Part shown: positions 32,092-38,204 of the stretch, one piece after another | Layout of the letters: each line of letters opens with the position of its first letter | Position numbering within the stretch: position 1 is the first letter of the stretch | Source: Utricularia gibba | Taxonomy: Eukaryota > Streptophyta > Magnoliopsida > Lamiales > Lentibulariaceae | Direction of reading: 5' to 3' | Assembly: GCA_002189035.1 (NCBI GenBank) | Contig: NEEC01000004.1 | Location: forward strand, 1,240,001 to 1,304,000 | Length of the DNA: 64,000 nt | Notes under the pieces: model-generated | Database searches by the model: none | Told to the model about the DNA's origin: nothing | What the model saw: only the letters and a program-made list of their open reading frames with translations | Translations under genes and position numbers: made by a program

Positions 32092-35000
32092 ATGGGCGTA
32101 TTTATAGCAAGCAACAGTCTTTACGGCCGTGGTGTCGTGAAGCATTTTGCTTGCTTTCAATTGGCTCGTTCAGCGTTTCGGGTCTTTAAAATCTCCGGTC
32201 GTTTCCCTGTTTTCTCCGCCAGCTTTTTCAGCTGCCGTTCCTCGGCTTTTTCAGGTAACCTTCTTCGCGGTACTATCCTGCATCTTCTTAGTCTGTACAT
32301 CAATGTTCTGTAAAATTCGTGGGAATCGAGTTGGTCGTGATTTATTCTTGAGTTTTGTTGCTCTGTTTTATGGGAGTCGATTAAGTAAAATGAGAATTGT
32401 ATGTGAACTTCTTCAATGGCTAAAGCTTTTGCATTCCATGTGCTCGAGAAAAAATTGAACATCGTATGCATCGTTGCCTGTGTTCGAAGTACCAATGAAC
32501 CGTTCCTCTGGTTCGTGCAATCTAGAAATAATTGAGTAACAATATTTCCCGTTTGTAGTTTATGGTTTCTTAACTCATCTGTGTATGTTATAACCATATG
32601 GAGAAAAAGAAGTTAATCACCCTTCTTCTGTCTTTGTTTGAATTGTCCACATTGATTGTATTCCATGCTATCTCAATGTCCAGAGACCCAAAATACTCTG
32701 GTTATGGAGATTGTGAAGTCGATAAGCCAGATTGGAACTACGTCTTCCCAACGTGTGGCTATAAGGGCAGATGGCAAATTTCTTAACTATCACCAGTTGT
32801 TCCTATCAGCAAGGAATATAGCTGGTTTATTATTATCTTCAACGAGCTTAAATGTTGTGAGTTGACGATGGATGTCTACTTATGATTTTTTGATCTTAAT
32901 AAGGATAAACGGATTATATTTTGGTATTATGTAAAGGACAATGAGGAAAACAGGGGTCTTGGTGGAGCCAGAGTAGGAATCGTTGCAAAACCCTCTGCTG
33001 AGTTTGTTGCCGGAGTATTTGGAACATGGCTATGTGGTGGTGTAGCAGTGCCTCTGGCGTTAAGCTACCCTGAGGCAGAGCTACTTCATGTGATGAATGA
33101 CTCGGTGCGTATTATTTTCATGTAGTCCTCTCAAAATCCTGAAGTTGATTTTCGAATCAGCGGTTTTTTTTGATATCATTGTAGGATATCAAATTTATCC
33201 TGAGCACTGAAGATCATCAAGAACTAATGACTTCTGTTGCAGCCAAGGCTTCAGCTCAGTTATCACTTTTTCCTCCCACTCAAAGCTCAACTCTTCAGTC
33301 ATCTGAACACTCTGGCGAAAACAGAGAAGTAAATGGCAACGGATGCTCTCAGGATGTTGGGTTTCCTCACAAGATTGGTGGTATGCTGCCCTTTTAATCA
33401 TGATATTCTGTTTGGAATTGGCATGCTAATACTGATGGAATACGTTGGTCTGTTGTGTAGGAGATGATCCTGCATTGATAATATACACCAGTGGCACCAC
33501 TGGCAAACCTAAAGGAGTAGTGCACACACACAAAGGTGTTCTAGCACAGGTACGTGCTTAGGGATTGTGTTCCTGTTTCCGATTTTAAATTGAGCTTTTA
33601 GACGCAATCTCTAACTATTCATTTTGCAACTTATGTATCAAGAATCTAGATTGGCATTCCATGCTCAAAGTTATTATCTGCATTTTGCAGTAGTTTTTGG
33701 TTTGCTTTCAGTTTTATTATTCAAATTTGGTAAGCTGGATCTTTTGTCATCAGGCTCAAATGCTGAAAGATGCCTGGGGATACAGGTCCGATGATCAGTT
33801 CTTGAACAGCCTGCCACTTCATCATATCCGCAAATTATACTTTTATCTTAGAGATGTATTGATTTATTCGTTTTCAACACCACAACATTGGCATTCTTAA
33901 CTGTATATATACACGTGCATGGCCTGTTCAATGCGTTGCTTGCCCCTCTCTATGCTGGAGCTACGGTAACCTTCTCATTTATTCCTCTGATGTTTTATGA
34001 GAACTGATGCTTTGTCGTGAAGATTGATACATATCTCATTTATCCCTCCGTTCAAGGTTGAATTTATGCCAAAATTCAGTGTGAGGGGAATCTGGCAAAG
34101 ATGGCGAGAGTCTTACTCTGAAGATCAGGATATGTCGTTGGGTGTTGTGACTGTGTTTACGGGGGTATGCTAATGATTTGTTTTAGCAATTTGAAATTTG
34201 TTTCTCCTGTAATACGCTGCCTAACTTCTTGCAATGTCACCATTTCTCTCTTTCGCATCCAAAGGTTCCCACGATGTACACACGTTTAATACAAGGGTAT
34301 GAAGCTATGGATCCAGAGCTCCAGTCTGCTTCAGCTGCTGCTGCAAGAAAGCTGCGTCTAATGGTAACATTGGATGAGAAGCATTGTTGCACATTTCAAG
34401 GCCACGAGCATATCATCCTAATTGAGCTTCGGTTGTTGGCAGATGTGTGGTTCCTCTGCTTTGCCCCTTCCAGTCATGCAACAGTGGGAAGCCATCACTC
34501 ACCACAGGCTGCTGGAACGATATGGAATGACTGAGGTTGCTGTTTTCTCTCTTATGCCAATGCACACTCTGTTTCCAACTTCAATTTGACCAATGGTTTC
34601 CATTTTCTTCAGTTTGTGATGGCTCTTTCTAACCCACTAGATGGAGAGCGTAAGGGAGGGACTGTCGGGAAGCCGCTTCCTGGAGTGGAGGTTAGTTTCC
34701 TCGATCAGACAGCTTGGTTTTCATAACTTTGGCCTTTTGCACGATGTAACATGGCTTTGAGAAAAACTACCACAATAAACTCAAAGACTAGTCCTTTACT
34801 TGCAAAAGGCCAAGATCATTGCTGAAGAAGGAAGTGAGAATGCTGGTGCAGAAGGTGGTGAGCTTTGCATCAAAAGCCCCTCATTGTTTGAAGGGTATTG
34901 GAAGCTTCCAGGGGTAAACTTTTTCGTTGTCGACGCATGAAATTACATGTCTGAAGTTTCTGAAGCTTCATCATGGTTCTCATGTATGAAAACTTTCAGG

Positions 35001-35783
35001 TCACCAAGGATTCATTTACAGATGATGGATTCTTCAGAACCGGAGATGCCGCAAGAGTTGATGAAGATGGATACTACATCATTTTGGGACGTATGTTTTC
35101 TAAATTGCCATGAACTGTAATCTTATCGTTCCACATTCTGAGCCGGACCCTGATTTAGGCACTAGTGCCGACATCATGAAGGTCGGGGGATACAAGCTGT
35201 CTGCTCTTGAAATCGAAGCTGTTCTTCTGGAGGTTCATCTCTTAACTGTCAACTTCAAAAACTAGATTTGGTTGCTTTTTTTCCCCCGGTTTCTTGAACT
35301 TTGCCTGCCTTTGCAGCACCCTGCAATTTCAGAGTGCTGTGTGCTGGGGTTGCCTGACAAGGCCTACGGTGAAGCCGTGACTGCAATCGTTGTTCCTGAT
35401 TCCTCAGTAAAAAGAAGGCGTGACGAGGAAATGAAACCCGTTCTTTCACTGCAAGAGCTTTCCTCATGGGCCAAGGACAAGCTTGCACCATACAAGGTTC
35501 CCCCCGCACAGCAAGAGTTGTGTAGTCCATTCATTTTGAAGCTTTTAGTTGGCTAATTATGTCTCATGTTGTTCATCACAGATACCGACTCGACTGCTTG
35601 TGTGGGAGTCTCTTCCTCGAAACGCCATGGGAAAGGTGCTCTAACTGATCCATGCACACAACGCATCTTTTTGCTTGTAATTGTGCATATCAGGAAGCAA
35701 TATCACTTGGTTTGTTTGCATCATTGAATCAGGTGAACAAGAAGGACCTGAAGAAAAGGCTGAGTGATGAGGTTCCCATGTAA
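32092..35783 (+). CDS. AAE13: Malonyl-CoA synthetase (malonate--CoA ligase), AAE13-like
   Basis: Seventeen exons join to 614 residues: 32092-32254, 32684-32856, 32937-33104, 33185-33380, 33461-33549, 33754-33823, 33913-33965, 34057-34164, 34265-34363, 34443-34535, 34613-34690, 34809-34913, 35000-35090, 35159-35232, 35317-35496, 35582-35635, 35733-35783. Motifs: [18 protein letters not shown], the AMP-binding P-loop [39 protein letters not shown], and the acylation lysine in [15 protein letters not shown]. The enzyme activates malonate to malonyl-CoA with ATP, clearing malonate in mitochondria and feeding malonyl-CoA-dependent reactions. The first exon encodes about 54 Arg/Ser/Phe-rich residues like a mitochondrial presequence; an internal Met at 32704 would give a 553-residue cytosolic form. 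Arabidopsis AAE13 is reported as dual-localised. The sixth intron is AT-AC. Confidence 0.92.
33824..33912 (+). other. Probable U12-type AT-AC intron
   Basis: The exon ends CTTCATC at 33823 and conserved coding resumes at 33913 with ACGTGCATGG, giving [22 protein letters not shown], as in AAE13. Between them the intron starts ATATCCGC (U12 donor consensus ATATCCTT) and ends in AC. A branch-site match ATTCTTAAC lies at 33893-33901, with the adenosine 12 bases from the end, the usual U12 spacing. No GT donor fits the phase. Confidence 0.8.
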
Positions 35784-35952: not shown

Positions 35953-37955
35953 TTAACTTAAAATGTTACCTACAGAAGAAGAATGTTGTGTATCAGGAGC
36001 AGACACTTGAATGTAAACCATTTGCGTGTAACCATTGAATACAGGAGCATCGAGTTTTGACAACCCGAGTCTTCGAAATAGGCTGTACTTACCATCTTCG
36101 ATGATCGGTGAGCGTGCACGAGCAGGATCATATCTTGTCTGGTGAGTGAGTGAAGGTCCGGCAACTGGGGGCAGCTCCCAGTAAGCATCAAGAACCGATT
36201 CTACATACCTGCTGTTCTCAAAATGTTCCGCATGTGTGATCTCTCTGCTGGTATGGTTAAAATCATCACGCATCTGCCCCCGCACCCCCCACCATGCCTC
36301 ACCATAACCGCACAGCTCATCGATACCGATGGCTTTGTCCCAGAATTTCTTCCTTTTGTTTCTGATCCGAGCTTCATCACTGTCCTTGAAACAACTGTGT
36401 CCACCACCTGTACAAACAGATAGTTCAAGTTCATCAACAGAAGGCAAGTCCGGAAATCGCTAGTTACATATGGAATGGAGTGAAATATCCAAGTTTATTA
36501 AATCCGCTCAGTTTGTCCATTAAACTTTCACCCCATTACATTCCCCTCATACTGCAAAGGTTCACACCAAGGATCACGTCTTCGTCTCTAACTCTGCCAT
36601 CAAAGGATATTTTTCAGGAAACAGGCATTCGCGCATTTGCATGCAAAAAACCTATCATAGGCTCGTTCCATTAAACTCCTTTTCCATCGTGGCCGAAGTA
36701 ACATGGTTCCTAGTTTACGTTGGACCTCTATCTTCATTCAGATGGAAACGCTAACTCACAATCCATAGTCACTGATGACGAAAGAGAAACCCACCTCTTA
36801 TGTAATACTGATCACATATTTGTCTAAGGGAATAATGATCCCCTGTTCCGGTATCGTAGTTGTCCTCAAAAATCAGATGGACGAAACCAGCATTCACCGC
36901 TTGCTTTAATCTACCCAGCATAAAAAAGGATGTAAGAGAAATTCAATACGTGTGGCCATTCCATATTTAAGGAATAGATCACAAAAGTTTCTAAACAAGG
37001 TAACTTTACCTTTTAAGTTCACTCTGATGGTCATCAAAGAAGACAAGAACCCTGCTTGGATCTTTGATCCCATGTTGAGCCATCACCGTTGGCCAATCCA
37101 TGGATCTGAAATCCACAAAAGCCTTCCCAGCGAAGTAAGTGCAATTTGCATCTACATAAGCCTGACCCTTGTTAAGGTATTTTCCAGGATGGCGAGGTGA
37201 AAGTGAGACAATTGGCTTGTCCCGCATTGCTTGCCGCAGAATCCATGTCGAATGACCCTTGAAAGCACCGCTCTCAATCATCAAATCTGGTTTCAACCAT
37301 CGAGTGATGAACCAGAGACCAAAACTGTGGTCGAAGCCCATCCCATACACGTTGTTCTTAATGGGTCTCGTCTCATATATTGGCACAAATTCTTCGACTC
37401 CAGCAAGCAAATCTTTGTAAGTCCACTCTACAGATTTCCCGTGCTTCGATCTGCCTTTTAATAACAACAGAAAAAACAAATGTTATAAAAACATCTTCCA
37501 GCTGGATCAAACTAAAGCGATTAAATGGTTCACATTGCTCCCGATTTTCCAAGACCGAGCTAATTAGGAAGAATGCGAGGGGCGCAGAAGAGTTGAAACT
37601 TACACCATGGAACGCCAAGAGATTCGAAATCCGACTCGTCATTGCTAAACCCCAAGAACCTCAATCTAGCGAAATGATCAGAGTATGTAGCCGAAATACA
37701 TACCAAATCGTGAGTACGACCAATCGCAGACGCGATACTCACAACAACGAGCGCAATTACAAGAATCGGCCACGCATAACCCTTCCGAAACAAGTACCTA
37801 GTAACCCGCACCACTCTCGATACCGGCTTCGGAGCCTTGGACTCGTCGCCAGTGTGGTCATCTGCAACTCCGATTCCGTCACCGGCACCGGCGGGAGGGG
37901 AGCGCCGTGCAGAGATGGAAACAGCTCTCTCGAGAAACTTGCTCCCCGTAACCAT
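35953..37955 (-). CDS. Uncharacterised plant membrane protein with methyltransferase-like domain
   Basis: Four exons (37604-37955, 37010-37454, 36795-36910, 35953-36407) join to 455 residues. Residues about 58-78 (AWPILVIALVVVSIASAI) form one transmembrane helix behind a basic segment, suggesting a type II membrane protein. The luminal part is highly conserved in plants as I remember it: DLMIESGAFKGHSTWILRQA, VLVFFDDHQSELKR, IFEDNYDTGTGDHYSLRQIC, GEAWWGVRG, and YWELPPVAGPSLTHQTRYDP. The IESGAFKGHST segment resembles motif I of Rossmann methyltransferases of the CmcI type, with FFDDH and FEDNY as acidic strand ends. No function is established to my knowledge; a Golgi or ER enzyme is inference. 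Its 3' end faces the malonyl-CoA synthetase gene 170 bases away. The frame is intact. Confidence 0.8.
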
Positions 37956-38204
37956 TTCACACTACGGTTTACCAAACCAACCTCACACCCCTTAGGAGTA
38001 ATTTATTTATTATTCCGTTCCCATTTTAACCTGCAAATTTGATATTTAACATCATGAAATTCCATTGTTTTATTTCAATTTTTGGCATTGAAAAAAAAAG
38101 TAACAAATATATATATTATTTTATTTACTTTTTTGGTATAGAAAAAAAAGTAACAAAAAAGAGGGCCAATATTATTTGAAAATTGATGGGGAAAAAAGTG
38201 CCTG

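Follow-up and report, generated by a model that had tools for sequence, protein, structure and literature searches.

Introns of the U12 type can have AT-AC or GT-AG termini, with the donor forms ATATCCTT and GTATCCTT, respectively. In surveys of plant genomes, approx. 0.06% of all introns are AT-AC (PMC6310983), and in Arabidopsis these account for approx. one-quarter of the U12-type introns (PMC7367187). The optimal distance between the branch point and the 3' splice site is 11-13 nt (PMC3584512), and an AT-AC U12 intron of the CBP20 gene has been published for other land plants (PMC5932401). In the literature collection searched, no paper links AAE13 with U12 introns, and the papers listed for minor introns name neither AT3G16170 nor ACSF3.

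The window analysed here is a stretch of 64,000 nucleotides from Utricularia gibba (contig NEEC01000004.1, positions 1,240,001 to 1,304,000), in which a preliminary description had proposed a probable U12 AT-AC intron within a malonyl-CoA synthetase gene. The analysis supports this proposal through the intron borders, the branch site, the snRNA genes, and comparison introns. The features discussed below are as follows (positions within the window).

32092-32254, plus strand: upstream in-frame exon, which together with 32684-32703 would add a 61-residue N-terminal extension (GT-AG join over 32255-32683)
32704-35783, plus strand: coding region of a predicted malonyl-CoA synthetase (AAE13/MatB type); with the second ATG as the start, it comprises 16 exons and encodes 553 aa
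33754-33823, plus strand: exon before the AT-AC intron, which interrupts the frame in phase 1; the exon ends with LNSLPLH and one base of the codon that follows
33824-33912, plus strand: putative U12-type AT-AC intron, 89 nt, ATATCCGC...TATATATAC
33824-33832, plus strand: donor ATATCCGCA; consensus ATATCCTT(T), with departures at +7, +8 (GC for TT), and +9
33893-33901, plus strand: putative U12 branch site ATTCTTAAC, for which the consensus is TTCCTTRAY; its branch A is at 33900, and the intron ends 12 nt further on
33898-33900, plus strand: in-frame TAA, inside the branch site
33911-33912, plus strand: AC acceptor, from the sequence and junction enumeration
33913-33965, plus strand: exon after the AT-AC intron, starting ACGTGCATGG and coding for (H) and 17 further residues

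Judged by its sequence, the product of 32704-35783 is a malonyl-CoA synthetase of the AAE13/MatB type. When spliced, the region translates without a stop across 553 residues from 16 exons separated by 15 introns. Over its whole length the protein is most similar to malonyl-CoA synthetases, its top NCBIfam match is malonyl-CoA synthase PRK07514 (7.5e-109, which lies under the bacterial cut-off of that model), and its top matches in the PDB are the malonyl-CoA ligases 3nyq, 4gxq, and 4fuq. The gene is present in a single copy in the genome (100.09 Mb, 516 contigs searched), where no paralogue was found for comparison, the remaining matches being relatives at 28-43% identity; the bacterial and archaeal contigs searched held distant relatives and nothing nearer. 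The 61-residue extension before the second ATG, which leads in frame to MEIVKS, is rich in Arg, Ser, and Phe, has few acidic residues, and looks like a mitochondrial leader. Because of this resemblance, the gene may produce two isoforms from two start sites. Just downstream, an oppositely oriented gene (36040-37960) converges on the synthetase gene, and its first exon encodes an apparent start of a single-pass membrane protein (MVTGSKFLERAVSISARRS...).

Counting the GT-AG intron at 32255-32683, the synthetase gene has 16 introns, among which 15 are GT-AG and the one at 33824-33912 is the exception. All pairs of cut points that keep an open frame between 33754 and 33965 were listed (4047 junctions), and their products were scored against the corresponding segment of two malonyl-CoA ligases of known structure, in which it is unbroken (LPLFHVHGL in 3nyq, LPIYHTHGLF in 4fuq). 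Every top-scoring product results from the removal of 89 nt, and the AT-AC join reaches a score of 169. In contrast, the two GT-AG and five GC-AG joins that leave the frame open lose or replace the conserved 20-residue motif and score at most 96; no AG dinucleotide occurs between 33853 and 33960. Retention of the intron was likewise rejected as a way of reading through this region, since translation then ends ...HWHS* at the TAA. The exon before the intron reads ...CTTCATC up to 33823, the predicted junction is 33823/33913, and the AT start and AC end are fixed by the protein frame. The coordinates first given for the intron, together with its ATATCC start and AC end, proved exact. The accompanying claim that this is the only possible join requires some qualification: it stands in that no GT-AG or GC-AG join keeps the motif, but the same peptide is also obtained from an AT-AC join at 33826-33914 and from the nonsense-ended joins 33823-33911 and 33825-33913. 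Within this group, the ATATCC donor and the 12-nt branch spacing are found only in 33824-33912. Among recognised intron termini, AT-AC alone fits the protein at this position.

The branch site ATTCTTAAC matches TTCCTTRAY at seven of nine positions, and its CTTAAC core (33896-33901) is intact and placed 12 bases from the intron end, as had been described. Between the branch site and the exon lies CTGTATATATAC, without a polypyrimidine tract. The combination of a U12-like donor and branch site is absent from the other 15 introns of the gene. When base composition is taken from these introns and four registers are allowed at the junction that the protein fixes, ATATCC, AC, and a branch core at 9-14 nt would coincide by chance with a probability of approx. 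1.8e-7; the combination appeared in none of 400,000 simulated sequences. The free pattern ATATCCGC-N(40-70)-CTTAAC-N(6-14)-AC, on the other hand, has two matches genome-wide and two in a reversed control; it is at the genome background, and the weight of the case therefore rests on the fixed position within the gene. Other matches to ATATCC plus a branch core in the genome are mostly due to chance. For example, one of them (L040) is a plain GT-AG intron of an apparent PFP gene in which ATATCC is coding. A separate observation concerns an AT-AC-like U12 candidate that is identical on two contigs (L030, G000:C414:3151066-3151155; L031, C415:5068-5157), which suggests that the end of another contig is present a second time as C415. 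This candidate lies in a gene that resembles a BUD20/ZNF593-type zinc-finger gene.

The genome also encodes minor-spliceosome RNAs. A genome search placed one locus each above the Rfam cut-off for U11 (G000:C1:6785358-6785486), U6atac (C317:657018-657145), and U12 (C244:2301509-2301660). The U12 and U6atac genes are preceded by the element CCCACATCG, which we take to be the plant snRNA upstream element; the stretch upstream of U11 has a TATA-like box and no clear CCCACATCG element. No U4atac locus was found in the genome by a search that was silent in its controls too and is thus uninformative on absence, and a Pfam search for the U11-48K zinc finger, a domain of 25 residues, gave no match and is uninformative as well. 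Introns of the same kind occur elsewhere in this genome. The CBP20 gene, which was found by homology, contains an AT-AC U12 intron (ATATCCTTT ... CCTTAATATGTCCAAC) whose removal joins DEYRTDYDP/GRGGYGK, and AT-AC U12 introns in two transporters join conserved protein (for example FT/KYALTLSPVAMSLEELIP, ATATCCTTTT); having recognised their peptides by eye, we presume these transporters to be of the AVT1 type. The pattern ATATCCTT...TCCTTRAC...YAC has nine matches in the genome, compared with one for its reversed control.

Given the exclusive fit of AT-AC termini, the ATATCC start, the branch site at 12 nt, the U11, U12, and U6atac genes, and the textbook siblings, 33824-33912 is very probably a U12-type AT-AC intron of the synthetase gene. 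The anatomy of the intron, the exclusion of GT-AG borders, and the three snRNA genes are observed, and the splicing steps can be drawn from the known mechanism of the class. Accordingly worded, the U11 snRNP would recognise the donor core ATATCC, ATTCTTAAC would pair with U12, U6atac would take the place of U11 at the donor, and the adenosine at 33900 would attack 33824. Exon joining at the AC ending at 33912 would then restore ...LPLHHVHGLFN..., with the other 15 introns presumably taken out by the major spliceosome.

The intron class is a known one, uncommon but well precedented; the unusual part is the weak donor. The extended donor ATATCCTT is matched at six of eight positions (ATATCC), with GC at +7/+8. 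The preliminary description was correct in pointing to GC for TT after ATATCC, and +9 differs as well, so that +7 to +9 read GCA in the synthetase intron and TTT in all AT-AC introns checked in the genome. Several observations, among them the U4atac search without a match, were counted against the U12 reading. The TT at +7/+8 has been described as nearly invariant in the U12 donor consensus (PMC2831892). In crude two-strand estimates of duplex energy, the predicted pairing of the donor weakens from -6.9 to -3.5 kcal/mol for U11 and, for U6atac, from -9.9 to -4.5 kcal/mol. U12 is likewise predicted to pair less strongly with this branch site (-5.3 kcal/mol) than with the consensus (-9.2 kcal/mol). 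A compensating change in U11 or U6atac able to pair with GC was looked for and is not present; both genes carry the usual sequences (AAAAGGG and AAAGGAGAG). Nonetheless, a rice U12 intron also departs at +7 (GTATCCATCA, branch TTTTTCTTAACT; PMC7367187), and plant U12 introns were spliced poorly in protoplast assays (PMC5932401). As +7 to +9 of the donor would be unpaired with U11 or U6atac, the synthetase AT-AC intron probably takes longer to splice out than its siblings do, and incomplete splicing of 33824-33912 is plausible. Transcripts retaining it would end at 33898. It is tempting to speculate, although we regard the idea as unlikely, that the weak donor is a rate-limiting step through which minor-spliceosome activity gates synthetase output, with retained transcripts stopped inside the branch site.

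Other explanations can be considered for this locus. A sequencing or assembly error, such that the true donor is the standard ATATCCTT or that a small error hides a different junction, has a slim chance of being correct. The two-base departure does fall exactly where the checked sibling introns have TTT; however, the exons on both sides are clean and in frame, and an error at +7/+8 would affect how strong the donor is but leave the intron in its class. Slimmer still is the prospect that the AT-AC donor has decayed and the intron is mostly retained, leaving the transcript largely non-productive or the gene losing its function. Three donor mismatches that break pairing with U11 and U6atac, and the stop that retention yields at 33898, would agree with such decay, whereas the intact state of the other exons and splice sites, the open 553-aa frame, and the single-copy status argue for continuing use. 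Because this single-copy gene is otherwise intact, loss of its function is unlikely. It is scarcely credible that the major (U2) spliceosome removes this AT-AC intron, or that the exon limits differ and the intron is GT-AG. AT-AC introns of the U2 type exist, but those described have G at +5 (PMC2831892), whereas +5/+6 are CC here and a U12 branch site lies at 12 nt; GT-AG and GC-AG joins destroy the conserved motif.

A U12-type AT-AC intron at 33824-33912 would correct the gene model, as automated gene finders limited to GT-AG and GC-AG introns would break the enzyme at the conserved HHVHGL motif. A natural plant U12 intron with a donor predicted to be unpaired at +7 to +9 also helps to ask how much of ATATCCTT is needed. 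With regard to known systems, the product of 32704-35783 shares its protein family and motifs with plant AAE13, bacterial MatB, and animal ACSF3, a likeness that extends to the possible mitochondrial leader upstream. The intron itself resembles other plant AT-AC introns of the U12 type, such as that of CBP20 (PMC5932401), in its AT-AC ends, its ATATCC core, and a branch site that is similar to TTCCTTRAY and lies within 10-13 nt of the 3' end. Like them, it is short, AT-rich, and the single intron of this kind among the GT-AG introns of the gene. Unlike introns of the CBP20 class, in which +7 to +9 of the donor are TTT, the synthetase intron has GCA at these positions.
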